A stretch of 64,000 nucleotides of DNA from Bacteroidota bacterium (GTDB lineage: Bacteria; Bacteroidota; Bacteroidia; Palsa-965): positions 124,001-188,000 of the forward strand of contig JADBYT010000009.1 of assembly GCA_020402865.1 (NCBI GenBank), read 5' to 3'. The notes under the pieces are model-generated. The model did not search any database, had not been told where the DNA came from, and saw nothing but the letters and a program-made list of their open reading frames with translations. Position numbers and translations under genes: made by a program. Position 1 is the first letter of the stretch. Each line of letters starts with the position of its first letter. Below are positions 28,872-48,073 of this stretch, piece after piece.

Positions 28872-29450
28872 TTATGCTATTTTACCCTGTTCACGCATCA
28901 TCCAGAAAATTCCCTTCAGATTTGAACGAAGTTGCTGAATGTATAATACCACAATTAACTCTTCAAGAAATGCAAGCACACTCACACTCCACATCACCCA
29001 GAAATAAAGTTCAGAATTTCCCCAGTTGAAATAGGTAAAAATAAAAATACCCTGAAGGTATCCGGCAAATTTATTCGACCAGAGATGAAAGTGCGGCAGG
29101 CGGTGAAACCTGATCAGACTTATTACCTGTGGCAATATCCAGAGGAAAACAAGCATTGAAAATGCCCAGCCTTTTTCACTCACAAAACTCCATTCGAGAT
29201 AAATAAAAGCTGTAAATGCGGCGATATAAGTCCCCATATCAGCCATAGAATCGAGCCGTGCGCCAAAGTTTGTTTGCAGCTTAAATACCCGCGCAATCAA
29301 TCCGTCGAGAATATCGGTAATCAGATTTATACTCAGTAATAGAATAAAGGCTTCGCGCTGAAGGGTAAAAATAAAATACATCACCAGCGGAAACGAAAGC
29401 AGCCGCCAGCCTGAGAGGATATTGGGAATTTGTTTACCGATATTTTTCAT
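28872..29450 (-). CDS. CDP-alcohol phosphatidyltransferase
   Basis: 192 residues, six hydrophobic helices. The diagnostic motif DILDGLIARVFKLQTNFGARLDSMAD is an exact D-x2-DG-x2-AR-x8-G-x3-D-x3-D. It displaces CMP from a CDP-lipid by an alcohol (glycerol phosphate, inositol, serine or similar). It is the first gene of the operon with cdsA. The acceptor alcohol cannot be deduced; size resembles PgsA-type or short inositol-phosphate transferases. Start ATG at 29450. Confidence 0.85.
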   Translation of the reverse strand: MKNIGKQIPNILSGWRLLSFPLVMYFIFTLQREAFILLLSINLITDILDGLIARVFKLQTNFGARLDSMADMGTYIAAFTAFIYLEWSFVSEKGWAFSMLVFLWILPQVISLIRFHRLPHFHLWSNKFAGYLQGIFIFTYFNWGNSELYFWVMWSVSVLAFLEELIVVLYIQQLRSNLKGIFWMMREQGKIA

Positions 29451-29733: not shown

Positions 29734-31011
29734 ATGGCTTCCTCAGAAGACAAAACAAGTAAGGCTTTAAGTAAAATTGAAGCAATTTACGGTCTCGCCA
29801 AACTTACTCAGCACATCCGTACACGCGCTGCCGAGCTTCCCCCGCGCGATAGTTTCCCGATAGAAGAAATGGCTTCGGCCGCCGGACAACATACACGATT
29901 GCAGTTTCTGAAAGAGCAAACCGGCCATAGTTTTCAATACCTCAACGGAGAAACAACATTTACGGATCTCAGCCAGCTTGAAGGTAATATTGAAAACTAC
30001 ATCGGTATGACGATGGTGCCCACGGGTGTAATTGGTCCGCTGCGTGTTACAGGCACTGCCGCCAACGACGATTACTATATTCCGCTGGCCACAAGCGAAG
30101 GCGCATTGGTAGCTTCCTATCATCGTGGGGCAAAGGCTACGCGGCTTAGCGGTGGTATTACTTCAGTTTGTCTGGTTGATGGTGTGCAGCGCAGCCCGGT
30201 ATTTCGTTTTGCTGATGTATCGGGTGCGGTGAGCTTTCTGGCGTTTGCCTACAGCCGTCGTGAGCAGATGGATGAAATTGTGCGTGCGCACAGCCGCCAT
30301 GCCGTACTTAGCGATGTGCGCGCCAACATCGAAGGCAATCACCTCATCCTCACTTTCGAATTTCAAACCGGTGATGCCGCCGGCCAAAACATGGTGACCA
30401 TTTGCACCAATGCCATTTGCAGTACACTTGTGCCCGAAGCACCGGAAAAACCGCTGGCCTGGTACATTGAAAGCAATTACTCGGGCGATAAAAAGGCTAC
30501 GGCTCTTTCATTTACAAGTGTGCGCGGCAAAAAAGTAACGGCCGAGTGCGTAGTTAGCCGCATGGTGGTGGAAAAAGTGCTCAAAACCACACCCGAAGCC
30601 ATGGCCGATTACTGGCAAAGCTCAACCATTGGTGTGATTCAAAGCGGCGCTATTGGTGCGCAGGGGCATGTGGCCAACGGACTCACCGCACTTTTTCTGG
30701 CCACCGGTCAGGATGCAGCCTGCGTGGCAGAAGCGGCCACAGGCATTACCCGCATGCAGCTCACCGCCGAGGGCAACCTTTACACCAGCGTTACATTGCC
30801 CAACCTCATTGTGGGCACCGTGGGCGGCGGCACCGCATTGCCTACACAACACGAATGCCTTGAACTCATGCAATGCGCCGGCACAGGTAACGCACGCAAG
30901 TTTGCCGAAATCTGCGCCGCAGTAGCACTCTCCGGCGAAATTTCAATTGCCGCTGCACTCGCTGCCGGACACTTTGCCTCGGCACACGAAAAGCTGGGAC
31001 GTAAAAAATAA
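29734..31011 (+). CDS. Hydroxymethylglutaryl-CoA reductase, class I-like
   Basis: 425 residues. It reduces HMG-CoA to mevalonate with NAD(P)H, the committed step of the mevalonate isoprenoid route. Catalytic residues are Glu122 (ATSEGALVAS), Asp214 (TGDAAGQNM), Lys253 (SGDKKA) and His418 (ASAHEKLG). ENYIGMTMVPTGVIGPL and GTVGGGTALPTQ resemble class I enzymes, although there is no N-terminal membrane domain. No other mevalonate gene is in the window. It is the first gene of a long plus-strand run starting from the promoter at 29651-29680, so its product may feed the UbiA-type prenyltransferase two genes downstream. Confidence 0.93.
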   Translation: MASSEDKTSKALSKIEAIYGLAKLTQHIRTRAAELPPRDSFPIEEMASAAGQHTRLQFLKEQTGHSFQYLNGETTFTDLSQLEGNIENYIGMTMVPTGVIGPLRVTGTAANDDYYIPLATSEGALVASYHRGAKATRLSGGITSVCLVDGVQRSPVFRFADVSGAVSFLAFAYSRREQMDEIVRAHSRHAVLSDVRANIEGNHLILTFEFQTGDAAGQNMVTICTNAICSTLVPEAPEKPLAWYIESNYSGDKKATALSFTSVRGKKVTAECVVSRMVVEKVLKTTPEAMADYWQSSTIGVIQSGAIGAQGHVANGLTALFLATGQDAACVAEAATGITRMQLTAEGNLYTSVTLPNLIVGTVGGGTALPTQHECLELMQCAGTGNARKFAEICAAVALSGEISIAAALAAGHFASAHEKLGRKK

Positions 31012-31015
31012 GACC

Positions 31016-31384
31016 ATGAACGCGCAGTTTGTACTTATTCTGATGTATGTGTGGATTGGCTTCATACATGCCGTGTTTACGGGCATTACCGTACTGGCTT
31101 TGCTTCCGAAACGTGCAGCAAAATGGCCGGCCGCATTCATCATTCTGCTGCTCATTGCCATACAGGCTTTTCTCGAAACGTACTGGATTCCTGTGGCGCA
31201 CCACCTCGGCTTACAACTCACATCAGGCCATGCACAGGTGAATGATTTCTTTCACACCACCGCAGGCAGCAACCTCATAAACGCCCTGCATCCCGGCTGG
31301 CTTAGTCCGCTGCTCTGGGCGTTCTGGGGCATCGTAGCCTGGATGATCGGCCGTAAAATAATGTCGCGCTTCACACTCAAGTAA
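31016..31384 (+). CDS. Small membrane protein in the lipid cluster, unknown
   Basis: 122 residues with three or four hydrophobic segments (QFVLILMYVWIGFIHAVFTGITVLALL, WPAAFIILLLIAIQAFLETYWIPVA, LSPLLWAFWGIVAWMIGRKI). Family not recognised. ATG at 31016 is four bases after the HMG-CoA reductase stop and eight bases separate its stop from the UbiA-type gene, so it is part of the same transcript. It may be an accessory subunit of the prenyltransferase; this is inference from position only. Confidence 0.65.
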   Translation: MNAQFVLILMYVWIGFIHAVFTGITVLALLPKRAAKWPAAFIILLLIAIQAFLETYWIPVAHHLGLQLTSGHAQVNDFFHTTAGSNLINALHPGWLSPLLWAFWGIVAWMIGRKIMSRFTLK

Positions 31385-31392
31385 ACTCAACA

Positions 31393-32343
31393 ATGAACCC
31401 GCACAGCAAACCCGAAGAAAATAATGCACCATTGCTGAAACGGCTGTGGATCTATCAGCGCGAGCGTTTCCCGCTGTTTGGCCACGGTCCGCTGGTGGCG
31501 GCATTCAGTTTCTCTGCCATCAGCTACTCGCGAATTTGCCGTGGTGCTGATGGATTTGTGGACTGGTCGCTGTTTGCACTTGGCATTTTTACAACTGTTT
31601 CACTGTTCCTGCTTGTGCGCATATTCGATGAGCATAAGGATGCCGAAGATGATGCACGCTACCGCAACGAACTTCCGGTTCCGCGCGGCCTCGTTTCGCT
31701 TTCCGAATTACGGAAAATCGGCATCGGCATTGTGGTTTTGCAAATTATTCTCAATGCCTTGTTTGCGCCCAAACTGCTTATCATCTGGGGCATTGTCATA
31801 CTTTACCTTTCGCTCATGGGCAAAGAGTTTTTTGTGGCCGAATGGCTCAAGAAACATCAGTTCTGGTATGTGGTTTCACACATGTTCATCATTCCGCTCA
31901 TCGACATTTACGCCAGCGGGCTCGACTGGTTGCAGGAAGGTGTAAGCGCACCGAAAGGTTTGCTGTTTTTCTTCGCGGTATCCTATTTCAACGGTATTGT
32001 ACTTGAAGTAGGCCGTAAAATCCGCATCCCGGCCGATGAAAAAGAAGGCGTTCTCACCTACTCGTCGATGCATGGCCCGCACAAAGCCACTTTGCTCTGG
32101 TTGCTCATGGTACTCATCACCGCAGGCTGGGCCATTGCTGCGTCGTGGTTTGCAGGATATGGTATGCAGGGATTCATTACCATGCTTTGCATTGCATTAG
32201 TCATAAGCATTCCCGCAATTTTATTCCTGCAGAAAATGACAACCAAACGTGCAAAATTTATTGAATACGCATCCGCACTCTGGACCATTGCCATGTATTT
32301 GAGTCTGGGCGGAATTCCGATGGTAGTTGAATTGATGAAATAA
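31393..32343 (+). CDS. UbiA-family prenyltransferase-like membrane protein
   Basis: 316 residues, about eight membrane helices. Acidic, Mg-pyrophosphate-binding-type motifs occur in the expected two loops: RIFDEHKDAEDDARYRNELPVPRGLVS (~residues 75-101) and EVGRKIRIPADEKEGVLTYSSMHG (~205-228). The pattern matches UbiA enzymes, which join a prenyl chain to an aromatic or lipid acceptor in the inner membrane. The acceptor is unknown. Presence after HMG-CoA reductase and before a polyprenol-kinase-like gene suggests isoprenoid lipid chemistry rather than quinone synthesis, for which no companion gene is here. Confidence 0.75.
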   Translation: MNPHSKPEENNAPLLKRLWIYQRERFPLFGHGPLVAAFSFSAISYSRICRGADGFVDWSLFALGIFTTVSLFLLVRIFDEHKDAEDDARYRNELPVPRGLVSLSELRKIGIGIVVLQIILNALFAPKLLIIWGIVILYLSLMGKEFFVAEWLKKHQFWYVVSHMFIIPLIDIYASGLDWLQEGVSAPKGLLFFFAVSYFNGIVLEVGRKIRIPADEKEGVLTYSSMHGPHKATLLWLLMVLITAGWAIAASWFAGYGMQGFITMLCIALVISIPAILFLQKMTTKRAKFIEYASALWTIAMYLSLGGIPMVVELMK

Positions 32344-32380
32344 ACTATCTTTTATCCACCCTTTACCCAAAACCCGTCAA

Positions 32381-33232
32381 ATGCCGGCTATTCGTATTTT
32401 ACTGTTTGTCCTTGTGCTTATTCTATCCGTTTTCGGAAAGTCGGATAAAATAAACTATGATGCATTTCGTAATGCACAGGATTTTACCGTGCCTGTTTTG
32501 AATTGTGAGGAAGAAAATAAAACTGCGCTGTTTGTTTTTCCGCACGATGATGATGTGATTTGTTGTGCCGGTACGGCACAATTACTTCGTGAAAAAGCCT
32601 GGAGAATCTATTCGCTCACACTTACGCAAGATGCCGATTCGAAAGAAGCTGCAAAACGGGCTGTGGAATGGAGTAACTCAATGAAAATTCTTGGTATTAC
32701 AGAATCTGCTCATCTCTACTTACCAAACAATCCGTGGGCCAATGTAGAGCAAAACAATCTTGTATTCTGGAATGAAAAAACAGACAGTCTCGAAACGCTG
32801 ATTTACACGTTTATGATGAAATACAAACCGTCGCTGGTAGTTACATTCGATACAATTATTGGCGGATACGGGCATCCCGAGCACCGGCTTACCGGCAAAG
32901 CTGTGTATCGTGTATTTACGGCACATAAAAATGAAAGCAACTTTCCGGTAAAGCGTATTCTTCACAGCACCATGCCCGAAAAGCTCGAACAGGTGTGGCT
33001 TTCAAACAATCCGGCTTATCTGCTCACACAAAAATATGCAGGACAGGTAACACTTCCCGAACCCAATGCTGCTGTTGATGTGCGCAACTACTGGCCGGTA
33101 AAACGAAATGCTGCAGCGGCATACAAAACACAGCAGGCCACACTGAAAAAATTCATGATGCTTCCCGACATAAAAGACACAGCCGCACACTATCAGGCGT
33201 TTGCCCGCGAATATTATCTGGAGGTGAAATAG
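32381..33232 (+). CDS. PIG-L / LmbE-family deacetylase
   Basis: 283 residues. An N-terminal hydrophobic segment (AIRILLFVLVLILSVFG) may be a signal or anchor. The zinc site is visible as FVFPHDDDVICCAGT (His55 and following Asp residues) and IGGYGHPEHRLTG. PIG-L enzymes hydrolyse N-acetyl groups from amino sugars attached to lipids or small thiols. Here the N-acetylated substrate is unknown; in this cluster it could be an amino-sugar or amino-acid lipid head group. 37 bases separate it from the UbiA gene and six from the next gene. Confidence 0.82.
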   Translation: MPAIRILLFVLVLILSVFGKSDKINYDAFRNAQDFTVPVLNCEEENKTALFVFPHDDDVICCAGTAQLLREKAWRIYSLTLTQDADSKEAAKRAVEWSNSMKILGITESAHLYLPNNPWANVEQNNLVFWNEKTDSLETLIYTFMMKYKPSLVVTFDTIIGGYGHPEHRLTGKAVYRVFTAHKNESNFPVKRILHSTMPEKLEQVWLSNNPAYLLTQKYAGQVTLPEPNAAVDVRNYWPVKRNAAAAYKTQQATLKKFMMLPDIKDTAAHYQAFAREYYLEVK

Positions 33233-33238
33233 TTTTGT

Positions 33239-35812
33239 ATGATACTTTTTTCAAACACACCTGCATCCGAACGCAGTGCCGATTGCGGCGGCAAAGCCTC
33301 CAACCTGTTTTTGCTGACCGATGCAGGCTTTCCGGTTCCCGACTTTGCGGTGCTGCCCGCAGGCTTACTGCAAAGCTGGATGCCTGAAAACACAACCGAT
33401 GCCGAAGCATTTATCCGCTCTTTCCGTATTCCCGATACAATTATTCAGTTACTGCTTAACCGGTTTGGCCACGATGCGCAACTCGCCGTGCGCTCTTCGG
33501 CATTGGGCGAAGATGGTGCAGAACAATCCTTTGCCGGACAATATGAATCGTATCTCCACGTAAATGCCGATACGCTTGAAGCGCGCATACGCGATGTGTG
33601 GCGCTCAGCCTGCGAGAAACGCGTGCAGGTGTACCAGCAGTTTCACGGTATCGGAAAAAGTAATATTGCCGTGATTGTGCAGGTGATGGTGAATGCCGAT
33701 GTAGCGGGTGTAGGTTTCGGAATAAATCCGGTGAGCGGAAACAGGAATGAATGTGTGATAAGTGCGGTGTGGGGTTTGGGAGAAGGTTTGGTTTCGGGCG
33801 AGCTTGATGCGGATACGTTTACCGTGTCGGCCGAAAAAATTACGGAACAGCTTGTAACTAAACCGCGCAAGGTAACTGCATCGGCACAAGGCGGTACGGC
33901 GTTTACAGAAGTGGAAACTTCGTTGCAAAATGCACGCACGTTGAGTAATGCACAGCTGCGTCACATCGAAAGCTGGCTATATCAGTTGAAGAAACTATAC
34001 GGACGTGCGCAGGATATTGAATTTGCCGTAGCAGATGGAAATTTGTATCTCCTGCAAACACGCCCCATTACCACCACCGCACAACTTCCCGACCCCGAAG
34101 GCGAATACTTAGTGTGGGACAACAGCAACATTATTGAATCGTATCCCGGACTTACCTCGCCGCTTACGTTTTCGTTTATCCGCAAAATGTATGAGGCTGT
34201 GTATATTCAGTTCACTTCCATGATGGGAGTGAATGAGGCGGAGCGGCAGCAGCATGCGGTAGTGTATGCCAACATGCTCGGCTTGCTCAACGGCCGCGTG
34301 TATTATAATTTACGGAGCTGGTACAAATTGCTTTCGCTGCTTCCGGGTTATCAGCTAAACGCGGAGTTTATGGAGAAAATGATGGGCGTGAAAGAACGTT
34401 TTACGCTCGACGATGTAACGGTGCGCAGCAAATTCAGCGAGCGTTTGCGTGTACTGAACATGATACGTTTGCTGCTGAAAAACCAGCGGCAATTGCCCGG
34501 TATGCGCCGCGCCTTTACGCGCGATTTTGAAGCGGTGATGCAGGAATACGATGCCATTGATTTCAGCCGGCAGCGGGCCGATCAGCTTATTGTGCTGTAT
34601 GAACGCTTTGAGCAAACCCTGCTGAAAAAATGGAAAGCGCCGCTGGTAAATGATTTCTTTGCCATGATCTGGTACGGTGTGTTGCAGAAACTCACCGCGA
34701 AATATTTCCCCGGCCATGCGGCCACGCTGCACAATGATTTGCTTTGCGGTGCACGCGATATTGTGAGCACCGAACCGCTGCGCCGCATCGACGAAATTGT
34801 AAAACGGGTGCGCAGCAATGCCGCCTGGCTGGCCTTGTTTGAAAAGCCCGAAAGCGAAGTGCTGGCGTCGCTGACGCTGAAAGAAAACGAGCCTGTGCAG
34901 CAACTCATGCAAAGCTATATTGCCGCCTGGGGCGACCGCACCGTGGGCGAGCTGAAGCTCGAAACAATTACCTACCGCCAGCAGCCTGCACTTTTTGTGC
35001 GCGTAATTGCAGCGGCTTTGAAGCAGCCCGAAACCACGCATGCCAATCTCGATCTGAAGCTGCGCAGCGAGGCCGAAGCCATTGTAAAAAGTAAACTCCG
35101 CGCAAAGCCGCTTAAACGCTGGCTGTTTAATCTGGCTCTTCGCCGCTCGCGCGATCTGGTGAGCAACCGCGAAAACCTGCGCTACGCCCGCACACGGGGC
35201 TTTGGCATGGTGCGCCGCATTATGCTGGCCATTGGCGAACAATTTGCAGCCGAACAGCTAATCGATTCGCCACGCGATATTTTCTGGCTGCGTCTCGACG
35301 AAATTGCAAACTACATACGCGGCACCTCCGACCTGCGCAACCTGCGCGAACTGGTACGCATACGCAAAGCCGACTACACAAAATTTGAAACGCTGCCTTC
35401 GTCGGAGCGTGTGCCCACGCGCGGCATTGTGTATGCAGGAAATAACTTTGCACCACCCGCAGCCAGCCTGCACGAAACCGCCAACGGCAAAGCACTGAAA
35501 GGTATTGGCTGTTGCCCCGGAAAAATTACAGCCCGCGTGCAGGTCATTCACGACCCGCACAGTGTAAGCAGCCTCAACGGCGATATTCTTGTAACCGCCA
35601 GCACCGACCCGGGCTGGATTACACTCTTCCCTTCGGCCTCGGCTATTCTGGTCGAACGCGGCAGCCTGCTCAGCCATTCGGCAATCGTATCGCGCGAAAT
35701 GGGGAAACCCTGCATTGTGGGCGTAAGCGGATTACTTCAGCAACTCAAAACCGGCGACCGTGTGCAAATGGATGGCAGCACCGGCGAAATAATTATTCTC
35801 GACAATGAGTAA
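33239..35812 (+). CDS. PEP-synthase / rifampin-phosphotransferase-like dikinase
   Basis: 857 residues. Residues ~1-290 are an ATP-grasp pyruvate-phosphate-dikinase N domain (GGKASNLFLLTDAGFPVPDFAVLP, AVRSSALGEDGAEQSFAGQYESYL, GLGEGLVSGELDADTFTV, QDIEFAVADGNLYLLQTRPI). Residues ~330-760 are a long variable middle domain starting WDNSNIIESYPGLTSPLTFSF. Residues ~775-857 are the swivelling PEP-utiliser domain with catalytic His813 (GSLLSHSAIVSREMGKPCIVG). Domain order and length match rifampin phosphotransferase and the PigC-type ligases rather than true PEP synthase, because the TIM-barrel PEP domain is missing. It therefore probably phosphorylates or condenses a small molecule via phospho-His. 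The stop overlaps the next start by eight bases. Confidence 0.8.
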   Translation: MILFSNTPASERSADCGGKASNLFLLTDAGFPVPDFAVLPAGLLQSWMPENTTDAEAFIRSFRIPDTIIQLLLNRFGHDAQLAVRSSALGEDGAEQSFAGQYESYLHVNADTLEARIRDVWRSACEKRVQVYQQFHGIGKSNIAVIVQVMVNADVAGVGFGINPVSGNRNECVISAVWGLGEGLVSGELDADTFTVSAEKITEQLVTKPRKVTASAQGGTAFTEVETSLQNARTLSNAQLRHIESWLYQLKKLYGRAQDIEFAVADGNLYLLQTRPITTTAQLPDPEGEYLVWDNSNIIESYPGLTSPLTFSFIRKMYEAVYIQFTSMMGVNEAERQQHAVVYANMLGLLNGRVYYNLRSWYKLLSLLPGYQLNAEFMEKMMGVKERFTLDDVTVRSKFSERLRVLNMIRLLLKNQRQLPGMRRAFTRDFEAVMQEYDAIDFSRQRADQLIVLYERFEQTLLKKWKAPLVNDFFAMIWYGVLQKLTAKYFPGHAATLHNDLLCGARDIVSTEPLRRIDEIVKRVRSNAAWLALFEKPESEVLASLTLKENEPVQQLMQSYIAAWGDRTVGELKLETITYRQQPALFVRVIAAALKQPETTHANLDLKLRSEAEAIVKSKLRAKPLKRWLFNLALRRSRDLVSNRENLRYARTRGFGMVRRIMLAIGEQFAAEQLIDSPRDIFWLRLDEIANYIRGTSDLRNLRELVRIRKADYTKFETLPSSERVPTRGIVYAGNNFAPPAASLHETANGKALKGIGCCPGKITARVQVIHDPHSVSSLNGDILVTASTDPGWITLFPSASAILVERGSLLSHSAIVSREMGKPCIVGVSGLLQQLKTGDRVQMDGSTGEIIILDNE

Positions 35813-36905
35813 AAACGATCTTCAGCAACGGGTAGAATTCGATTTTATCCGCTACGCCAACTGCTGGGAAGATGCCGATATACTGGCCGAAGCATTGCAG
35901 GTAAAACCCGGCGAACGCGTGCTGTCAATCGCCTCGGCAGGCGACAATAGTTTTGCACTGCTCATTAATGCGCCCGAAATTGTAGTGGCTGTTGATGTAA
36001 ATGAAATTCAACTCTGGCTCGGTGAATTGAAAAAGGCGGCTTTTACACTCGATACACACGAAGAATTTCTGGCTTTTCTTGGCTTCACACCTTCATCTTC
36101 ACGCATCGAAACCTATAAAAAAATACGCAGCCAAATGCCCGAACCGGCGCAACGCTGGTGCGACAACCATTTACAGCTCATCGAAGCGGGCGTAATTATG
36201 CAGGGAAAGTTTGAACGTTACTTCGGCTACTTTCGTTCAAAATTGCTACCGCTCATTCATAATAAAAAACGTATTGCAAAACTGTTTGAAGAAAAACCGG
36301 CAGATGCACAGCAAAAATTCTACACTGAAGAATGGAATACCTGGCGCTGGCGTTTGTTTTTCCGCATTTTCTTCAGCCGTTTTGTAATGGGCAAATACGG
36401 GCGTGATCCGGAGTTTATGAATGAGGTGAAGGTTTCGGTAGGTAAGTATATTTTTGGCAAAGCCGAAACTCATTTGCAAAGCAAAGTCATGCAGCAGAAT
36501 CATTTTCTGCACCATATTCTTGCCGGTAAGTTTGAACCTCAGCTTCCGCTTTATGCCCGAAAGGAAAATTTCGAACGCATACGGTCAAATCTTTCGCGCA
36601 TTGTCTTTTTTAAAGGCTATGCCGAAGAAGCCTGCCGCGAGTATGGTCCGTTTGATGCGTTCAACCTCTCCAATATTTTCGAATACCTATCGGCCGAAAT
36701 TTCAACCACCATTGCCCAGCAGCTTTGCAGTGCATCAAAACCAGGAGCGCGTTTTGCCTACTGGAATTTAATGGTGCCGCGAAATCTTGCTGCATTGTAT
36801 CCTGAAAAACTGCAACGCCAAAACGAAGTGGCCGACCGGCTTGGCGCCAGCGACAAAGGCTTTTTCTATCACCGCTTTCATCTCGATATTCTGAAAAATG
36901 GATAA
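35805..36905 (+). CDS. BtaA-like (DUF3419) aminocarboxypropyl transferase
   Basis: 366 residues. The SAM-binding region PGERVLSIASAGDNSFALLINAPEIVVAVDVNEIQLWLGELKKAAF (~35-78) matches BtaA, which moves the 3-amino-3-carboxypropyl group of SAM onto diacylglycerol in betaine-lipid synthesis. IRYANCWEDADILAEAL at the N-terminus, GKFERYFGYFRSKLLPLIH and the C-terminal GPFDAFNLSNIFEYLSAE also fit. No BtaB-type N-methyltransferase is present, so the product may stay unmethylated or the acceptor may be different. It overlaps the genes on both sides by eight bases, strong evidence of coupling. Soluble or peripheral membrane enzyme. Confidence 0.8.
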   Translation: MSKNDLQQRVEFDFIRYANCWEDADILAEALQVKPGERVLSIASAGDNSFALLINAPEIVVAVDVNEIQLWLGELKKAAFTLDTHEEFLAFLGFTPSSSRIETYKKIRSQMPEPAQRWCDNHLQLIEAGVIMQGKFERYFGYFRSKLLPLIHNKKRIAKLFEEKPADAQQKFYTEEWNTWRWRLFFRIFFSRFVMGKYGRDPEFMNEVKVSVGKYIFGKAETHLQSKVMQQNHFLHHILAGKFEPQLPLYARKENFERIRSNLSRIVFFKGYAEEACREYGPFDAFNLSNIFEYLSAEISTTIAQQLCSASKPGARFAYWNLMVPRNLAALYPEKLQRQNEVADRLGASDKGFFYHRFHLDILKNG

Positions 36906-37602
36906 TCAGCTTATACATTGCCTCTGGCTGGGTGCGTGTTTTCTTGCACTCTTCAGCACCGGCGAAATTTTATATCATAAATTCGGCGTGCGCGCCGAAT
37001 ACACGCGCAAGCTCATTCATTTGGGTACAGGTGTACTTACACTGCTTTTCCCCGTTTTTCTGCGTTCGCATTGGTTTGTGCTTTTGCTTTGCGGTGCGTT
37101 TGCAGTAATACTGCTTACAAGTTTAAAATTCAATCTTCTTAAATCCATCAACGCCATCGACCGTAAATCGCATGGCAGTATTTCGTATCCGGCGGCCGTG
37201 TACGGTACATTTTTATTCTACGATTTCTTTTCAGGCACGCATCCGCAAAAAGCCTACTTCTACATTCCCGTACTTATGCTTGCCGTATGCGATCCGATTG
37301 CTGCACTGAGCGGAAAGCGCTGGCCGTGGAAACCTTTTCAGGTAGGAAGCGGAAAGAAAACACTAACCGGCTCGCTCATGTTTTTTATTTCCGCATCATT
37401 GCTGTCCGGCATTCTGCTTTATACACTTTCTGAAACCAGCAATTCCAATCTGATTACACTTTCATTGCTGCTGGGTGCTTTCGGGGCATTTATCGAGGCG
37501 ATAAGCCGCAACGGTTTCGACAACCTGCTTATTCCGCTCATTTCCATACTTGTACTTGCAGCAGGCTTTTTTCTTGGCTGGTATCAACCGGAAATACTGT
37601 AA
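36898..37602 (+). CDS. Dolichol/phytol kinase-like (SEC59/VTE5 family) membrane protein
   Basis: 234 residues, six or seven membrane helices. Conserved positions of the CTP-dependent polyprenol kinase family are visible: YTRKLIHLGTGVLTLLFP, DRKSHGSISYPAAVY, LAVCDPIAALSGKRW, GSGKKTLTGSLMFF and GAFGAFIEAISRNGFDNLLIPL. Such enzymes phosphorylate long-chain isoprenoid alcohols or diacylglycerol with CTP. It overlaps the BtaA-like gene by eight bases. With HMG-CoA reductase and UbiA in the same run, a polyprenol or isoprenoid-lipid substrate is a reasonable inference but diacylglycerol is also possible. Confidence 0.78.
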   Translation: MDNQLIHCLWLGACFLALFSTGEILYHKFGVRAEYTRKLIHLGTGVLTLLFPVFLRSHWFVLLLCGAFAVILLTSLKFNLLKSINAIDRKSHGSISYPAAVYGTFLFYDFFSGTHPQKAYFYIPVLMLAVCDPIAALSGKRWPWKPFQVGSGKKTLTGSLMFFISASLLSGILLYTLSETSNSNLITLSLLLGAFGAFIEAISRNGFDNLLIPLISILVLAAGFFLGWYQPEIL

Positions 37603-37620
37603 TCTGTAATTCACTCACCT

Positions 37621-38628
37621 ATGAATTTGCGCTACATCACACAACAGGAGAATGAATTCGACGCTGCATTCGGAGAACTAAATGGCACACTCTATCCCGA
37701 TGAGATGAAACCGTGGAGAAGAAAAACGGGAACCGATATCGACGGAGACCGCGCCATATTCATGCTGGTGGCAGAACAAAACGGCACAAAAGAAGCGGTG
37801 GCTGTTTTGTATCGCAGTGATGCGGATGATGCAGATGATGCACTATTTATCGGAAACTACGAAGCGGATACTGACGAAGCTGCCACCGCACTGCTGGCAG
37901 AAGCGGAAGCTTTTGCCCGTGCGCAGAATTTCAAACGCATACTCGGCCCTATGAACGGAAGCACCTGGGGCACCTATCGTTTCCGGAAAGGCAATAGCAA
38001 TGATTTATTTTTTTCCGAGCATTATCATCCCCCGCAATACCCTGAACAGTGGAAAAAAGCCGGCTTTACTGAAACACAACATTACATTTCCACCATCGAC
38101 AAATCGTTGCACTGCGATAGCCCCGAAATTCTTGCACTCGAGGCAAAACTCCCCGCTGCAGGTCTGCATATCCGCACACTAACTGAAAACGATTTCGATG
38201 CCGGCAGTCTGCGAAAACTGTACACGTTTTGCACCACCGCTTTTGCCAACAACGTACTTTATGCACCCATCCGTGCAGAAGTTTTTATGATGCGTTATGC
38301 ACATATAAGCAAATACATTGCACCGGAAAGCAGCGCAGTTATTGAAGATGCGCAGGGCGAAATACAAGGCCTTCTCCTCGCCTATCCCGATCATTTTTGT
38401 AAAACGGAAAAGCGGTTCATCATTAAAACCGTAGCTCGGCATCCGCAGTGTACATTTAAAGGCATCGGCACGTTGCTGGGCAATCTGGGTACACGCTATG
38501 CCAAACAACATGGCTACACAAGTGTAATTCACGCCTATATGCACAGTGGCAATGCTTCGGTAAACCTTTCCGGGAAATTTTCGGGCGAGTTGTTACGTGA
38601 ATATGTTTTATTTGAAAAAACACTGTAA
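37621..38628 (+). CDS. GNAT-like acyltransferase
   Basis: 335 residues, soluble. Two GNAT-like halves can be made out: residues ~60-160 (AVAVLYRSDAD, AEAFARAQNFKRILGPMNGSTWGTYRF, GFTETQHYIS) and ~170-335 (LRIRTLTENDF-like start, RFIIKTVARHPQCTFKGIGTLLGNLGTRYAKQHGYTSVIHAYMHSGN). The second half holds the better acyl-CoA-binding pattern. Bacterial relatives N-acylate or N-acetylate amines. A role in N-acylating the aminocarboxypropyl head group made by the BtaA-like enzyme is speculative but fits the order of genes. The stop shares one base with the next ATG (TAATG). Confidence 0.65.
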   Translation: MNLRYITQQENEFDAAFGELNGTLYPDEMKPWRRKTGTDIDGDRAIFMLVAEQNGTKEAVAVLYRSDADDADDALFIGNYEADTDEAATALLAEAEAFARAQNFKRILGPMNGSTWGTYRFRKGNSNDLFFSEHYHPPQYPEQWKKAGFTETQHYISTIDKSLHCDSPEILALEAKLPAAGLHIRTLTENDFDAGSLRKLYTFCTTAFANNVLYAPIRAEVFMMRYAHISKYIAPESSAVIEDAQGEIQGLLLAYPDHFCKTEKRFIIKTVARHPQCTFKGIGTLLGNLGTRYAKQHGYTSVIHAYMHSGNASVNLSGKFSGELLREYVLFEKTL

Positions 38629-39215
38629 TGAAAAACCGACGCAAACTCATTCTCCGCACATTACTTGTGTTGCCTTTTGTGGCTGCGCTGGCTGTGTGGA
38701 TTTTCAGTCGCTATAAATCGCACGACAATTTGCCGTACAAAGCCATTGCGTATTCAGTAGAAATTAATGCTTCACCCGAAGAAGTGTTTGCCTATCTCGG
38801 ACACTCGGAAAAAGCGGGCGAATGGTCGGTATTTGTGCATCACATTACCACACTGAACAGCGATAGTTTTGCCGATGGTACCGTAGGTTGCCGGCGTCGC
38901 TGCTATTGTAATGCCGATGAAAAAGGAACGCAATGGGACGAACTCATTACGGAAGTTGTGCCCGGAAAACGCCGTCAGCTGACCATTTACAACCTGGTTG
39001 ACTTCGACATGACTGCCAACGGACTTTACACAGAGCAGCTTTACACGCCGCTTGATGGCGGCAAACGATGCCGGCTTACGCTTTCGTTGTTTTACAAAAA
39101 TGCAGAACCATCAGTTTGGGAGCTTGTGAAAACACATCTCTCGTCGTGGAAAGCCGAAAGCATTTTTGCGCGTAACTTAGCCAACATCAAACGCAACATC
39201 GAGAAACAGCGATGA
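38628..39215 (+). CDS. Membrane-anchored SRPBCC-fold protein
   Basis: 195 residues. An N-terminal anchor (LILRTLLVLPFVAALAVWIF, ~6-25) is followed by a SRPBCC/polyketide-cyclase-like domain (YSVEINASPEEVFAYLGHSEKAGEWSVFVHHI, RCRLTLSLFYKNAEP, ESIFARNLANIKRNIEKQ). The fold binds hydrophobic ligands such as lipids or prenyl compounds. It is coupled on both sides: TAATG with the GNAT gene and ATGA with the ligase gene. Probably a lipid-binding or tailoring partner; catalysis cannot be shown from sequence. Confidence 0.7.
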   Translation: MKNRRKLILRTLLVLPFVAALAVWIFSRYKSHDNLPYKAIAYSVEINASPEEVFAYLGHSEKAGEWSVFVHHITTLNSDSFADGTVGCRRRCYCNADEKGTQWDELITEVVPGKRRQLTIYNLVDFDMTANGLYTEQLYTPLDGGKRCRLTLSLFYKNAEPSVWELVKTHLSSWKAESIFARNLANIKRNIEKQR

Positions 39216-40735
39216 ACATTGCAAGGCATTTTTTTACTTCGGCCGCTGCACATCCGCACAAAGCGGCAATAATCGACCGCGATGGCCGTGCAATAAGCTT
39301 TGGCGAACTTGCCAACGAAGTAAAAACAGCAGCAGCGTACTACCGCAGTAAAGGCATTGGCCGTGGCGACCGTGTGCTGGTGTTTGTGCCCATGAGTATT
39401 GAGCTTTACCGAAGCGTGCTGGCCATTTTTCACATTGGCGCCGTGGCTATTTTTCTCGACGAATGGGTGAGCCGCGAAAGGCTTGAACTGTGTTGCCGCA
39501 TGGCACAATGCAAAGCATTTATTGCCCCGTTCAAACTTCGTGCGCTAGCGTTTCTGCTTTCGCCGCAACTGCGCCGTGTGCCGGTGTGGCTGGGCAAAGG
39601 CATAAAAAAGACGGATGCTGCCACTGAAGCAGAGGCAGTAGCAGCTAATGAAACGGCGCTCATTACATTCACCACAGGCAGTACCGGCATTCCCAAAGCA
39701 GCCGACCGCACACACGCATTTTTGCAGGCGCAGTTTGATGCGCTTGTGGATGAAATACAACCCGCGCCCGATGATGTGGACATGCCCGTGCTGCCCATTG
39801 TCCTTTTGCTCAATCTCGGCAGCGGCATCACATCTGTCATTGCCGATTACAATTCGCGCAAACCTAAAAAACTGAATCCATCGCGCATTCGAACACAAAT
39901 TACAGCGCACGGCGTAAACCGTTTTATTTCGTCGCCTTATCTGGCCGAGCAGCTTGCAAAGCATTCAACTTTGTATCCGGGCAAAGACAGCACGCAGCTT
40001 CGCCGCATTTTTACCGGCGGCGCGCCCGTGTTTCCCGATCAGGCGGCAACCATGCAGCAAGGCTATGCACAGGCGCAGATAAACATAGTGTACGGCTCCA
40101 CCGAGGCTGAACCAATAAGCCGCATCACCGCTTCTGAACTTACACAGCAGGGCGAACTAAGCCGGGGGCTTGCAGTAGGTCACATTGCCAAAGCTGCTAC
40201 TGTAATCATTCTCCCTATTACCAATTCGCCCATCGAAGTAAATGATGCACAACATCTGCAAGCGATGCAACTATCTTCCGGCGAAGTGGGCGAAATTGTG
40301 GTGAGCGGCCCGCATGTGTTGCGTCATTATATTGATAACCCGGAAGCAGTGAAGCAAAACAAGATCTTTACCGGAAACACAGTCTGGCACCGCACAGGTG
40401 ATGCAGGCTTTGTAAATGACGACGGACAACTTTTTCTCTGCGGTCGCTGTAATGCAATTATTACCGACAAAGCCGGGCACATGCTTACACCGTTTTTGTG
40501 GGAAGGAAAATTACGGTTGATAGATGGTGTTGCAGCCGGCACAATAATGCAACAGGGCGAGAAAATTGTGGCCGTAATTGAACCATTAAAAAATGCAATG
40601 CTTGAAAAAATAAAACGTGAAATCAGCGAAGCGTATCCGTTTGATGAAATCCGCGTATTACCACAAATCCCAAGAGATCCGCGTCATTTTTCGAAAGTAG
40701 ATTACGGAAAGTTGAAGGAGTTGATGATGAAGTAG
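39212..40735 (+). CDS. OleC-like AMP-forming ligase
   Basis: 507 residues of the ANL (acyl-CoA synthetase) superfamily. P-loop TFTTGSTGIPKAADRTH (~residue 150), INIVYGSTEAEPISR, hinge WHRTGDAGFVNDDGQLFLCGR, and C-terminal RDPRHFSKVDYGKLKEL with the catalytic Lys. The stretch QPAPDDVDMPVLPIVLLLNLGSGITSVI is close to the one in OleC, the beta-lactone synthetase of long-chain olefin synthesis, rather than to ordinary fatty-acyl-CoA ligases. No OleA, OleB or OleD gene is present. The substrate is therefore a carboxylic or beta-hydroxy acid activated as an adenylate; its identity is unknown. ATG overlaps the previous stop by four bases. Confidence 0.8.
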   Translation: MNIARHFFTSAAAHPHKAAIIDRDGRAISFGELANEVKTAAAYYRSKGIGRGDRVLVFVPMSIELYRSVLAIFHIGAVAIFLDEWVSRERLELCCRMAQCKAFIAPFKLRALAFLLSPQLRRVPVWLGKGIKKTDAATEAEAVAANETALITFTTGSTGIPKAADRTHAFLQAQFDALVDEIQPAPDDVDMPVLPIVLLLNLGSGITSVIADYNSRKPKKLNPSRIRTQITAHGVNRFISSPYLAEQLAKHSTLYPGKDSTQLRRIFTGGAPVFPDQAATMQQGYAQAQINIVYGSTEAEPISRITASELTQQGELSRGLAVGHIAKAATVIILPITNSPIEVNDAQHLQAMQLSSGEVGEIVVSGPHVLRHYIDNPEAVKQNKIFTGNTVWHRTGDAGFVNDDGQLFLCGRCNAIITDKAGHMLTPFLWEGKLRLIDGVAAGTIMQQGEKIVAVIEPLKNAMLEKIKREISEAYPFDEIRVLPQIPRDPRHFSKVDYGKLKELMMK

Positions 40736-40739
40736 ATGT

Positions 40740-42248
40740 ATGAGTAATCCGATTCTCACAGGTTCGCTGGTTTGTGCTACAGTGGTAGCGGTTTATGCTG
40801 TTTCGGTGTATTCATTTACACGTCATAAAACGAAAACAGCAGTAGGCCTGCTCATGCTTTGCGGTGCGGTGCTGAGTATTTATGTGTCGTCGGATAATTA
40901 CCTGCACGAGTGGGACGAACGCTTTCATGCGTTGGTGGCGCGCAATATGATGGAAACACCGCTTACACCAAAACTGTATTCCAACCATGTATTGCCTTTC
41001 GATTATACCGACTGGACATCGAATAATATCTGGCTGCATAAACAACCGCTTCCGCTCTGGCTCATGGCGGGCAGCATGCACATTACAGGAATAAACGAAT
41101 GGGGAGTCCGGTTACCGTCAATCATTGCTACTACATTTCTGATACTGTTCACTTTTCGTATCGGGCAACGGTTGAAAGACACACGCACCGGCTATATTGC
41201 GGCCTTGCTCATTTCGCTTAACGGATTGATTATTGAAACGAGCGGCGGCCGTGCAGCTACCGACCATTACGATGTACTTTATCTGTTTTTTATTACGCTT
41301 GGGGTATGGATGGCATTGCGTTTTGCCGATACGAAAAAAACTGTTTTCAATTTACTTACGGCAGTGGCTGTGTCGGCGGCAATTCTTACACGCTGGCTGC
41401 CTGCGCTTATTGTATTACCACTCTGGCTGCTTGCCGTGGTGCACTCGGCGAAATTTCAGCGGCGCGAAATAATACTTCAGTTCATGTTACTTTGTACCGC
41501 AATTGCAATACTCGTACTGCCGTGGCAAATTTACTCAGCCATTTATTTTCCCGACGAGTGGAAATGGGAACAAAGCTATAATTTACGGCATTTTACAGAG
41601 GCGCTTGAAGGCCATAGTGGTCCGTGGTATTTTCACTTCGAGAAAATGTCGATTGCATTTGGCGATTACTTTCTGATTGTGCTAGGCTGGTTTATCTACA
41701 AAACACTACGCAAACCACGCTGGAATAATCTTATTCTGCTCACATGGCTTGGGGTACCGCTGCTTTTTTTCACCCTTGCCGCCACACGCATGACCGGTTA
41801 CACGTTGTTTACGGCTCCGGCCGCTTTTATCATAGCAGGTGAATTTTGCAGCATGCTGATTGATCTCAGCGAAAAAAGAAACTGGAAAATTATTTCGCCG
41901 GTGTTGCTGACTGTGTTTGCTTTTTTTACGCTTCGATACAGCAATGAACGCATTAAGTTTTTCGACGGCAACACCCGCAATCCGCGGTGGGTACAGCAGC
42001 TTCGGCAAATAAACTCGAACAACCCGCATCCGAAAACCATTTACTTCAATATGAACCGTCCTGTGGAAACGATGTTTTATACGGGGTGTTTGGCTTATCC
42101 GATAGTTCCGGATGCGGATAAGCTGAAAGCGTTGCGGGCGTTGGGCTACCGGCTGGTGATTAATGCGGATGCAGAAACGGAATTGCCCTTGTCTGATGTG
42201 GAGGTGATCAATGCGGATGCGTTGCGTGGAGCGGTGCAGGAAGATTAA
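40740..42248 (+). CDS. ArnT/GT39-type membrane glycosyltransferase
   Basis: 502 residues with ten or more hydrophobic helices. The GT39/GT83 catalytic loop YLHEWDERFHALVARNMMETPLTPKLY (Asp-Glu near residue 59) and WLHKQPLPLWLMAG are present. Such enzymes use a polyprenyl-phosphate sugar donor on the outer face of the inner membrane to glycosylate lipid A, proteins or other lipids. The gene begins four bases after the ligase stop and ends the cluster, convergent (two bases apart) with the ABC exporter gene. A role in decorating the lipid made by this cluster is inferred from position. Confidence 0.82.
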   Translation: MSNPILTGSLVCATVVAVYAVSVYSFTRHKTKTAVGLLMLCGAVLSIYVSSDNYLHEWDERFHALVARNMMETPLTPKLYSNHVLPFDYTDWTSNNIWLHKQPLPLWLMAGSMHITGINEWGVRLPSIIATTFLILFTFRIGQRLKDTRTGYIAALLISLNGLIIETSGGRAATDHYDVLYLFFITLGVWMALRFADTKKTVFNLLTAVAVSAAILTRWLPALIVLPLWLLAVVHSAKFQRREIILQFMLLCTAIAILVLPWQIYSAIYFPDEWKWEQSYNLRHFTEALEGHSGPWYFHFEKMSIAFGDYFLIVLGWFIYKTLRKPRWNNLILLTWLGVPLLFFTLAATRMTGYTLFTAPAAFIIAGEFCSMLIDLSEKRNWKIISPVLLTVFAFFTLRYSNERIKFFDGNTRNPRWVQQLRQINSNNPHPKTIYFNMNRPVETMFYTGCLAYPIVPDADKLKALRALGYRLVINADAETELPLSDVEVINADALRGAVQED

Positions 42249-45437: not shown

Positions 45438-48059
45438 TCAATAGCTCCAGCGGCGCGTAAGCGCGTTGTAAAAACTGAAGCCCACTTTCCAGGTCAATGT
45501 TGGCTTTTCGAACGTGTTATCGGCCGTTACGGCGAATACTCCAAGACGGAAAAGCTGTTGGCGGATACGGATTACACGTTCCAGTCCGGCGAATACTTCC
45601 TGATGGTAGAAGCCGGCATCAGGAATAATAAGTGTGCCGCCACCCAAAGCTGCGGTAATTTTCAACCTACCGAAAAGCGGAATTTTGCTGCCGAACGCAC
45701 CTTCGAAATGGTGAATGAAGTTGATCCGCACAAAACTGCTTGCCGTACTCAGTGTAGGCCCGAGCAACTGAAACGAGCGAAGGGGATCGGAGAAAATGAA
45801 TGAATCGGAACCACGGAAATATTTGTGCTCAAGCAAACGCAGGTTGGCTTTATTGAGGAATGCGCCAAACAATACATTCCAGCTCAGAAAGCCAAAGCGT
45901 TTCATCTGCAGCTCATCAACTGAACCGAATTCGATGTAATCGAAATTCACTTCGCTGCCCAGCAGGCCGGGAATGCCTTTGCGGTAGAAGAAACGCAGTT
46001 CGGGATACTTTGAGCCGAGAATGATTTTCTGCTTTTTGCGGATCATGTATTTCTGACGGAAACGATACTTGAGTTCGAGCTTGATTTCGGTTTTTACGTA
46101 CCGGTCGAAGTTAATTGGCGTATTGAGCGAGCCAAACAACTGACCCGACCACTGCTCAAGCTGCAGACCGGTAATCGGAAACTGATCACTGTACTCGAAG
46201 GTAAGTTCGCCGAAAAGTCCGTTTACAATTTCCATCCGCTGTGCCACACTAAACTCACGGCAGCGCACCCAGTTGCTGCGGCTGAACACCTGCTGAATGG
46301 AAGCAAAATTGTTCACCATATCGTAAAAATCGCCGAAGCGGATAAAGGTGCGCACAAATTTGAGTGGTACATACGTAAGGCCCACGCCCACTTTGCCACG
46401 TAAATCGCGGTTGCGAAAACCATAGTCTATTTGCCCATCAGTTTCGAGCAGCATATTGTTGGTGAAGCGTTTGTTAAAACTGCCGCTAAGGTTATGACGA
46501 TAACCGCCAACGCCAAACGGGTTAACCTGATCGGCAAGCGGCGAGATGTAAAAATTGTAACGCTTCTCGCGGTTGCGGTGACTGATACCGTTGATCAGAA
46601 AGCTCCATACATCAAGGTGATTGTAGGCCGAGTCCTGACTCATTTTATACTCCGGACTGTTGTGATAAGCCAGAATACTGTCAACCTCATGCACATAGCG
46701 CAGTTCGCGTTCCTGCAACTGAATGGTGCGGTTTTGCACCCAGTAGGCCGAATCTTTGTCGAATGCATCTTCTTCAAAATGTTTCACCTCATCATTGAAC
46801 AATTTGGGCGGGAAAGTGGTGTTTACCTTGTACTGCGAATGATCGGAACGCATGTTACCGATAATATTGAACTTGCCTTCGCGCACGGTATAATTAAACT
46901 CACGGCGCACCGGCAAATAAATACCGGAGGCCACTTCTTCATAATCAATAATGATGTTAAACTCTCTGCAGAAAAGCAGCACGTCGGTATTCACGCTCAG
47001 GTTTACCGAGAGGATTGCCCATGTGCTGTCTTCCACAAAAATGAACCCCGAGAAAAGTGCATCGGACCGGAAAAGCGGATTGACGGCTATTTTATGAACC
47101 TGTTTACCGTTTTCGGTAAATGTGGTAAGGAAGTCGAAACGGTAATTGAGAAAAGCAGTACCTGCAGCCGGTGAGAGCAGCGGACGGCTGGCAATATTGG
47201 GCACATCAATCTGGTTGCGGTAAAAGTTAAAATCGGCCGACTGTGCATCGTTTACAAGCAGATACACATTGTCTGTGAGCACCTGCACAGGCGCAATTTC
47301 ATGCTCGCCATAGTTGAAGCCCATGCCGCTGTTGTTGTTCACATCCATTACATTGTTTGAACGCCGCTCGGTAAAATCATGCTGGGCAAGCACATTTTCC
47401 TTGAATCGGCCGGGGCGCTCGAAATAGGTTTCTGTAACCGATTCGAGAAGATTCAGGCGTTTGTCTTTAAGTGCATCCTGAGCCTCTTTCAGTTCTTTTT
47501 CCTTACGTTCCTTCTTTTGTTTAGTTTGATAACGTGCCGTTGAATCTTCCTTTTTCTTTTTCCGTTCCAGTTCGGCCAGCGACGAGTCGCGTTCAGTGGG
47601 ATTGGTACTGGCTTTTTCGAGTGATATTTTCTGATACGTACGGCACTGGTAGTTGTTTACACGATCCCAGTATTCACTCCGTTTATCAATTACCTGCTTC
47701 ATTATCTCGCGTCCTTTGTCGCGGTCGCCCTTGACACTAATTTCCACGGCGTTCATGGAAACGGTGGAAACGCGCATGGTCACATTAAGAATCGCAGGCT
47801 TTCCTTCGGCAATGGTCACAGCCTGCTCCTGCGTAGCCAGTCCGAGCTGCGAGAAGATAAGTGTATAGTTTCCGGGCTTAAGTTCAAGAAAAAAGGCGCC
47901 GTTCAGGTTGGTATTTACACCGTAAACAGAATTCTTTACAGATACCGCCACATACGGTAGCGGTTGCCCCGTAGTATCACGCACTACACCTTTTACCACA
48001 CCCGCACTGAGCAGGGCTGGGAAAGTCAAAAAAAGCAATAAAAGACGTATTCCGATCAT
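45438..48059 (-). CDS. DUF5686 / carboxypeptidase-regulatory-like outer-membrane protein (paralogue 1)
   Basis: 873 residues. Signal peptide (GIRLLLLFLTFPALLSA), then a CarbopepD_reg-like beta domain at ~20-105 (GVVKGVVRDTTGQPLPYVAVSVKNSVYGVNTNLNGAFFLEL). A charged linker and DUF5686 region follow (KGDRDKGREIMKQVIDKRSEYW, YQCRTYQKISLEK). The C-terminal ~450 residues have alternating strands typical of a TonB-receptor-like barrel, with final WKVGFSFYNALTRRWSY ending in an aromatic residue. Probably an outer-membrane protein; function unknown. ATG at 48059 is chosen because the upstream TTG at 48068 overlaps the -7 box TAACTTTG (48066-48073). The transcript appears leaderless. It is about half identical to the gene at 48308-50977. 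Confidence 0.85.
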   Translation of the reverse strand: MIGIRLLLLFLTFPALLSAGVVKGVVRDTTGQPLPYVAVSVKNSVYGVNTNLNGAFFLELKPGNYTLIFSQLGLATQEQAVTIAEGKPAILNVTMRVSTVSMNAVEISVKGDRDKGREIMKQVIDKRSEYWDRVNNYQCRTYQKISLEKASTNPTERDSSLAELERKKKKEDSTARYQTKQKKERKEKELKEAQDALKDKRLNLLESVTETYFERPGRFKENVLAQHDFTERRSNNVMDVNNNSGMGFNYGEHEIAPVQVLTDNVYLLVNDAQSADFNFYRNQIDVPNIASRPLLSPAAGTAFLNYRFDFLTTFTENGKQVHKIAVNPLFRSDALFSGFIFVEDSTWAILSVNLSVNTDVLLFCREFNIIIDYEEVASGIYLPVRREFNYTVREGKFNIIGNMRSDHSQYKVNTTFPPKLFNDEVKHFEEDAFDKDSAYWVQNRTIQLQERELRYVHEVDSILAYHNSPEYKMSQDSAYNHLDVWSFLINGISHRNREKRYNFYISPLADQVNPFGVGGYRHNLSGSFNKRFTNNMLLETDGQIDYGFRNRDLRGKVGVGLTYVPLKFVRTFIRFGDFYDMVNNFASIQQVFSRSNWVRCREFSVAQRMEIVNGLFGELTFEYSDQFPITGLQLEQWSGQLFGSLNTPINFDRYVKTEIKLELKYRFRQKYMIRKKQKIILGSKYPELRFFYRKGIPGLLGSEVNFDYIEFGSVDELQMKRFGFLSWNVLFGAFLNKANLRLLEHKYFRGSDSFIFSDPLRSFQLLGPTLSTASSFVRINFIHHFEGAFGSKIPLFGRLKITAALGGGTLIIPDAGFYHQEVFAGLERVIRIRQQLFRLGVFAVTADNTFEKPTLTWKVGFSFYNALTRRWSY

Positions 48060-48065
48060 TTTGCG

Positions 48066-48073
48066 CAAAGTTA
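48066..48073 (-). promoter_or_regulatory. -7 element TAACTTTG directly before the DUF5686 gene (leaderless start)
   Basis: On the minus strand TAACTTTG is followed by six bases and then the ATG at 48059, leaving room for no more than a few bases of leader. It fixes the start codon. Confidence 0.55.

Follow-up and report, generated by a model that had tools for sequence, protein, structure and literature searches.

A conserved non-Ole gene cassette holds an adenylate-forming ligase placed as sister to the OleC/LstC-type ligases

Introduction

The closest described systems for the ligase examined here are the oleABCD olefin pathway, with its ligase OleC, and the lipstatin-like clusters, with their LstC-type ligases. 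As described in PMC7064751, oleACD clusters without oleB yield beta-lactones, so that the absence of OleB alone would not exclude such products. The ligase in question, P0001, is encoded within positions 124,001 to 188,000 of contig JADBYT010000009.1 (GenBank assembly GCA_020402865.1, here G000), and this whole 64-kb stretch is referred to below as the window. Some of its neighbors call to mind two further systems. In fungi, SidI and SidF are a mevalonyl-CoA ligase and a GNAT transferase, respectively. An archaeal-type ether lipid pathway, with a digeranylgeranylglyceryl phosphate (DGGGP) synthase of the UbiA family, CarS and CDP-alcohol transferases, is described for the FCB group in PMC7852524.

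A first-pass annotation of the window had called P0001 an OleC-like ligase with no OleA, OleB or OleD partners, pointed to the neighboring SRPBCC and glycosyltransferase genes, and suggested a beta-lactone or another activated acid as an intermediate of a different product. Here we report that P0001 almost certainly belongs to a conserved non-Ole cassette with a core of seven genes, encoding the ligase, a 3-hydroxy-3-methylglutaryl (HMG)-CoA reductase (HMGR)-like protein, a UbiA-superfamily protein, an Rph-type dikinase, a DUF3419 protein, a CTP-kinase-like protein and a GNAT-family acyltransferase. We consider it reasonably probable that P0001 is the acid-activating enzyme of this cassette, passing its acyl-AMP to a nucleophile on the way to a lipid-like product.

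Results

P0001 is related to OleC but falls short of the OleC models

The open reading frame named in the first-pass annotation was recovered exactly. P0001 is a member of the ANL adenylate-forming superfamily by its AMP-binding domain, the only Pfam match (5.8e-45), which spans the whole N domain, and by its core motifs, namely the ATP motif TTGSTGIPK, YGSTEAEPIS, HRTGD, CGR and a C-terminal PRDPRHFSK including the C-terminal Lys; we take TTGSTGIPK, YGSTE, TGD, GR and SK to be the corresponding ANL motifs. Retention of these adenylation motifs indicates that P0001 very probably adenylates a carboxylic acid. The top NCBIfam model was PRK09274 (335 bits, below its cut-off of 478), and PRK09274 together with the two OleC models outscored the FadD, DltA and nonribosomal peptide synthetase (NRPS) models. 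The OleC models, with cut-offs of 900 and 850 bits, gave 201 and 170, short of an equivalog assignment, which argues against a beta-lactone synthetase; yet the ligase of an oleBCD-like arrangement in another genome, G356, also misses both cut-offs (566 and 580 bits), while passing that of PRK09274 (657 vs 478). OleC was not named among the best 60 of 195 Protein Data Bank (PDB) sequence matches of P0001, the top one being 8wev (75 bits). A structure predicted from the P0001 sequence alone had a mean pLDDT (predicted local distance difference test score) of 36.6, and a scan of the genome contigs with P0001 as the lone query returned two distant loci only.

To place P0001, a tree of 40 rows was built from P0001, 23 cassette relatives, five OleC/LstC-type ligases and 11 outgroup rows. 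The five OleC/LstC-type rows were three lipstatin-type cluster ligases (from Rhodococcus and Streptomyces plasmids), the G356 oleBCD-like ligase and a ligase of G150 that adjoins a gene read by eye as alpha/beta-hydrolase-like. Eight outgroup rows were labelled by NCBIfam as A-domain/DltA-like, FadD/PRK06187-like or fatty-acyl-AMP ligase (FAAL), and the other three (L016, L018 and L020) were unscanned. P0001 and its 23 relatives formed one clade (support 100/99), and these with the OleC/LstC-type rows formed a clade of 29 (100/99) against the FadD, FAAL and A-domain rows of the outgroup. P0001 thereby falls in a sister clade of the OleC/LstC-type ligases, not inside their group. An earlier tree of 43 rows, in which L007, L008 and L071 lay among the cassette rows, required three changes of the cassette label instead of one; out_L008 (wrong reading frame, branch length 10), out_L007 (the divergent cassette-like ligase of G048, misplaced in the outgroup) and duf_L071 (G328) were then removed.

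Six residues (K384, H393, R394, D489, R491 and H492) are fixed in 24/24 cassette ligases and in all five OleC/LstC-type rows, while the same positions are matched in 0 or 1 of the 11 outgroup rows. Ten other fixed or near-fixed positions distinguish the cassette ligases from the five OleC/LstC-type rows. On this placement, the cassette ligases are the sister group of the OleC/LstC-type ligases, and the call of an OleC-like ligase holds in that sense. An ordinary fatty-acyl-CoA or fatty-acyl-AMP ligase, feeding the GNAT enzyme or general lipid acylation, would equally show an AMP-binding match across the whole N domain and the superfamily catalytic motifs, and a GNAT gene does accompany the ligase in 24/24 other loci. 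However, the FadD-type, FAAL and A-domain rows lie beyond a 100/99 branch and the residues shared with OleC/LstC are nearly absent from them, which makes this reading improbable.

Ole and Lst partners are not found

No tblastn match at 1e-5 to the OleB, OleD or 3-oxoacyl-ACP synthase III (KAS III) of G356 was obtained in the window. The genome G000, 100% complete, encodes three KAS III (ACP_syn_III_C) proteins, all nearest to FabH-type models, one of them scanned as its C-terminal 251 amino acids only. The top OleD model match in G000 reached 84 of 580 bits, and the G356 OleB query gave no match there at 1e-20. P0001 is thus neither encoded with OleA, OleB or OleD nor found to share a genome with them, in line with the first-pass annotation as far as G000 was tested. 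Relatives of the G356 OleB, 28-38% identical, occur in four cassette genomes (G007, G094, G213 and G309). PRK09258, presumably an OleA model, matched at 1e-40 only in G356 among 26 genomes, with a score of 148.6 of 285, below the cut-off. In G356 itself the oleB-oleC-oleD-like genes lie at L072:8333-11882, about 16-17 kb from a KAS III-containing gene (L105), with a FAAL gene and genes read by eye as polyketide synthase-type between them.

The search was extended to 31 fetched stretches, covering 24 cassette loci, and the window. Two KAS III queries, the G356 OleB and OleD, and the LstA-, LstB-, LstD- and formyltransferase-like proteins of Rhodococcus gave no tblastn match at 1e-5 in these sequences, and the Rhodococcus NRPS query matched nothing but the ligases there. 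The lst names used here are those we assume for the KAS III, second protein, ligase, reductase, NRPS and formyltransferase genes of the Rhodococcus and Streptomyces clusters. The partners of the ligase occur in L121 and L124 and, as far as the NRPS, in L122, but were not detected in the cassette loci or the window. L121, L122 and L124 are lipstatin-like clusters on plasmids of Rhodococcus qingshengii TG-1 and two Streptomyces, and contain KAS III, ligase, reductase and NRPS genes, with a formyltransferase in two. The LstC-type ligases are thus alike in belonging to the sister clade (identity about 28-31%), and unlike in their KAS III, second protein, reductase and formyltransferase surroundings. 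For OleC, likewise, P0001 shares the sister clade, the fixed residues and the adenylation motifs, whereas its scores and its gene partners differ.

These results bear on the possibility that P0001 is a true beta-lactone synthetase, which would adenylate a beta-hydroxy acid whose own hydroxyl then attacks, giving a beta-lactone as intermediate or warhead of the cassette product. The 100/99 sister relation, the shared residues, including those in PxDxRHxxK and HRxGD, and the top rank of PRK09274 speak for it, and a missing OleB is in itself no counter-argument given the oleACD clusters cited above. Against it stand the separate clade with its ten distinguishing positions, the low OleC scores, and the fact that the cassette loci, searched at 1e-5, gave no KAS III or OleD/LstD-like match that could supply a 2-alkyl-3-hydroxy acid. 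We regard ring closure as possible but rather unlikely. Acyl transfer is preferred because the cassette ligases split off as a clade of their own, because neither a thiolase nor an OleD-like reductase was found, and because GNAT and DUF3419 are constant partners.

The ligase gene is a fixed member of a conserved cassette

In the window, eleven co-directional genes from the HMGR-like gene to the glycosyltransferase gene (29734-42248) are separated by gaps of -8 to +37 bases, a tight operon in which P0001 starts with a 4-base overlap with the SRPBCC gene. Promoter and terminator patterns were uninformative (13 vs 16.6 in shuffles and 21 vs 20.2, respectively). At E 1e-60 the ligase was matched in 24 of 395 genomes of the class; G356, G150 and G328 are outside the cassette type, which leaves 21 genomes with the cassette, the window included. 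Ligase matches beyond the class came from G407 and from four genomes belonging to a single genus, and G558, G615 and G407 hold the cassette (G604 and G622 were left out of the 24 loci). The near-complete congeners G001 and G003 have neither cassette nor HMGR, and no ligase match was found in the congeners G002 (72% complete) and G005 (66%).

Of the 24 loci other than the window, all contained DUF3419, GNAT and ligase genes, 23 the kinase-like gene, 22 the PEPS dikinase (of phosphoenolpyruvate (PEP)-synthase type), 21 UbiA and 19 HMGR, or 20 with a plasmid copy spanning the record start. Contig ends account for the absent UbiA and PEPS genes and for three of the absent HMGRs (G094, G171, G207 and G229). 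SRPBCC was present in nine, CdsA with CDP-alcohol transferase in two, and PIG-L and the glycosyltransferase in none of the loci as fetched, so the neighbors stressed in the first-pass annotation are present in the window but do not define the cassette. The order of the genes present was constant in 22 of the 24 loci and permuted in L100 and L101, and other genes were inserted in L057 and L061. DUF3419 is the most constant partner of the ligase (27/27 loci, counting the window, the 24, L071 and L129). The seven-gene core is a conserved non-Ole cassette, and because the ligase gene is a fixed member of it, the proposal of a different product stands, although its beta-lactone part fares less well.

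The cassette is spread over several GTDB families, beyond the class, and onto one alphaproteobacterial plasmid. The latter (L120), a 137-kb plasmid of the alphaproteobacterium Roseinatronobacter sp. S2, carries the whole cassette, with the reductase across the record start; its annotation gives, in the same order, UbiA, PEP/pyruvate-binding, DUF3419, two hypothetical proteins (matching the kinase-like protein and GNAT) and AMP-binding. The L120 cassette adjoins genes with lipopolysaccharide-synthesis and glycosyl-transfer annotations. At L025:8624-9997 (-) and L028:5693-7048 (-), the gene beside the ligase reads as a cytochrome P450; the L025 protein, the one scanned, scored against terpene-oxidising P450 models below their cut-offs. 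An accidental grouping of unrelated genes, in which the ligase would serve another pathway, might be argued from PIG-L, the 121-amino-acid protein and the glycosyltransferase, none of which is conserved, but the constant core order over this range brings such an explanation close to refuted. No description of the cassette was found in the titles and abstract openings returned by searches of open-access papers, the full texts of which were mostly unchecked; DUF3419 appeared in four papers, each concerned with eukaryotes as judged by title and abstract opening.

In most carriers no mevalonate pathway was detected for the cassette reductase

The mevalonate pathway was examined in 42 genomes (19 with the cassette and 23 others). 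Mevalonate-diphosphate decarboxylase (MVD) was found in eight of the 42 (155-175 bits); 15 of the 19 cassette genomes, G000 included, gave no match and four did, whereas 1-deoxy-D-xylulose-5-phosphate reductoisomerase (DXR) was present in 16 of the 19. Since MVD is mostly missing and DXR mostly present, the cassette reductase occurs without a detected mevalonate pathway to isopentenyl diphosphate (IPP) in most carriers, the window included, and it is not a housekeeping enzyme. In four genomes (G208, G296, G309 and G323), MVD occurs together with a second HMGR. Among the 23 non-cassette genomes seven have an HMGR, four of these with MVD; as G012, G016 and G022 have HMGR and no MVD, the combination extends beyond the cassette. 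In G000 no HMG-CoA synthase turned up, either by PF01154 or among the KAS III proteins, but PF01154 is absent from 40/42 genomes and is an insensitive test, because six of the eight genomes with a strong MVD match fail it too.

In the HMGR alignment (row L114, a wrong reading frame, was not counted), every row retains those of the catalytic Glu, Lys, Asp and His that it covers. The position of the HMG-contacting Ser (which we take to be Ser684 in human numbering, the residue roles being assumed likewise) is Glu in 21/21 rows, including G016, which lacks the full cassette, and the Asn755 position is Gln in 19/21, with Ser and Asn in two reference chains. The replacement of Ser by Glu suggests a changed acyl group in the cassette enzyme. 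The Glu is shared by three non-cassette HMGRs (G012, G213 and G246), so it marks a group wider than the cassette.

Other cassette enzymes and neighboring genes

The PEPS dikinase matches 5fbs (filed as a PEP synthase, and presumably Rph) across both ends, and its swivel His is kept in the window protein and 15 relatives (16/16). The profile of the UbiA family placed the DGGGP synthase 6m31 first of three PDB chains (E 3.2e-5). For this gene the UbiA of the ebo operon (Ubi-297/EboC) was considered and rejected; the partner genes named in the opening part of PMC9235831 differ from those of the cassette. The window DUF3419 protein is about 22-26% identical to rhizobial plasmid DUF3419 proteins, and its profile gave one weak PDB match (E 0.033). 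We take BtaA, an aminocarboxypropyl transferase, to be a characterised member of this family. The profile of the kinase-like protein had no PDB match; its motifs are those we associate with dolichol/phytol kinases. The coordinates of all features are collected in Table 1. Elsewhere in the window, 45438-48068 (-) and 48308-50977 (-) encode tandem paralogues, 62% identical over 870 columns, which read by eye as large outer-membrane-type proteins.

Table 1. Genes of the window operon and of the adjoining divergent pair
Feature	Positions	Strand	Remarks
CdsA-like cytidylyltransferase (PF01148)	28096-28869	-	Pfam family; partner of the CDP-alcohol phosphatidyltransferase gene
CDP-alcohol phosphatidyltransferase	28872-29450	-	divergent; adjoins the window operon
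Class I HMG-CoA-reductase-like	29734-31011	+	catalytic E, K, D, H kept; HMG-site Ser replaced by Glu
Small membrane protein, 121 aa	31019-31384	+	no Pfam match; no match among open reading frames of the other loci examined
UbiA-superfamily prenyltransferase-like	31393-32343	+	family profile nearest DGGGP synthase in PDB
PIG-L deacetylase-like	32381-33232	+	window operon only; 0/24 other loci
PEP-synthase/rifampin-phosphotransferase-type dikinase	33239-35812	+	N-end ATP domain, C-end swivel domain with His
DUF3419	35805-36905	+	Pfam, conservation
Membrane CTP-dependent kinase-like	36898-37602	+	presumed name, from motifs; PF01148 matches in family
GNAT-family acyltransferase	37621-38628	+	Pfam; conserved in other loci
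SRPBCC / Polyketide_cyc2	38628-39215	+	Pfam; N-terminal membrane anchor by eye; optional, 9/24 loci
P0001, ANL ligase of OleC-sister clade (PRK09274-like)	39212-40735	+	507 aa, ATG start; Pfam, NCBIfam, tree
PMT_2-type glycosyltransferase	40740-42248	+	last operon gene; 0/24 other loci

Related clusters combine some of the same genes. In G016 (L106:7071-11214), HMGR, kinase-like, fatty acid desaturase, CDP-alcohol transferase and CdsA-like genes form one run without UbiA, PEPS, DUF3419 or ligase. In G246 (L126:3928-6225, -) and G022 (L127:3188-5503, +), an HMGR carrying an additional domain (APH-like in G246, the protein that was scanned) is followed by a short membrane protein and then a PEPS dikinase; the short protein is CarS-like in G246 (22.6 bits vs a cut-off of 22). 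By eye only, another, small membrane protein of L126 and L127 looks UbiA-like, with no Pfam match in L126, and a desaturase lies upstream of the fused HMGR in L127. A divergent cassette in G048 (L129:8500-16339) holds ligase, DUF3419, an APH/ecdysteroid-kinase-like gene, GNAT, PEPS and UbiA, indicating that a kinase of another family can occupy the kinase-like slot. G328 (L071) has DUF3419 and ligase together and nothing more of the cassette; in both of these divergent loci DUF3419 adjoins the ligase. The CDP-alcohol transferase lies within the cassette in L061, adjoins it in L024, and stands beside HMGR and the kinase-like gene in L106.

Discussion

In the reading we favor, P0001 would adenylate a carboxylic acid, probably one with a beta-hydroxy group, the likeliest substrate class by analogy with the sister clade. 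The acyl-AMP would then go to a nucleophile arising within the pathway itself, such as an amino or hydroxyl group created by the DUF3419 enzyme and acted on by the GNAT enzyme; the acceptor could be an amine, an alcohol or CoA. Transfer to such an external nucleophile is marginally favored. Of the other enzymes, the HMGR-like reductase would convert an acyl-CoA to an alcohol, the kinases would phosphorylate alcohols, UbiA and DUF3419 would form ether or C-C bonds, and CdsA/CDP-alcohol enzymes may join in some loci. Because the cassette brings together a reductase, kinases, UbiA, DUF3419 and, occasionally, CdsA/CDP-alcohol enzymes, we think it likely that the product is a membrane or lipid-type molecule.

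Several observations pull the other way. The tree references were placed by gene context or annotation and include no biochemically characterised OleC, LstC or NltC, and the OleC/LstC-type group is itself weakly supported (89/42). The second motif of the cassette UbiA is ExGRK, differing from the Asp-rich motif we assume to be canonical. The CTP-kinase-like protein of the window has no Pfam or NCBIfam match, and weak PF01148 matches occur in only 4/17 members of its family. Neither HMGR nor the kinase-like gene accompanies the G246 cassette, in a fetched stretch that is uncut at that point, and CdsA/CDP-alcohol genes adjoin only 3/25 cassette loci (window, L024 and L061). The lipid-type product is a prediction from family resemblance.

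Comparison with the archaeal-type ether lipid pathway shows likeness in the UbiA profile, in the CdsA-like and CDP-alcohol genes that adjoin some loci, and in the CarS-like gene, just above cut-off, of the related G246 cluster; the UbiA second motif is unlike it, and to our knowledge DUF3419, the dikinase, GNAT and the ligase are not part of that pathway. SidI and SidF resemble the cassette in that HMGR, an acid-activating ligase and a GNAT enzyme are combined in one pathway, and differ in that the HMG site of the cassette HMGR is altered. A more detailed scheme, which we put forward as doubtful, would have the repurposed HMGR make an alcohol, mevalonate or a relative, that is phosphorylated rather than led to IPP; a DGGGP-synthase-like UbiA and a BtaA-like DUF3419 enzyme would join the parts of an isoprenoid- or lipid-like membrane molecule, and the ligase would activate a beta-hydroxy acid, possibly mevalonate, for the final coupling.

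A sister group of the OleC/LstC-type ligases with a fixed non-Ole context limits the use of OleC-like ligases as markers of beta-lactone clusters. The analysis also ties HMG-CoA reductases to a probably lipid-type cassette in genomes in which no MVD was found. The cassette spans several families of one phylum (taken from gene content to be Bacteroidota) and at least one alphaproteobacterial plasmid, and indicates a pathway that awaits elucidation; its product, if found, could represent a new lipid or natural product class.

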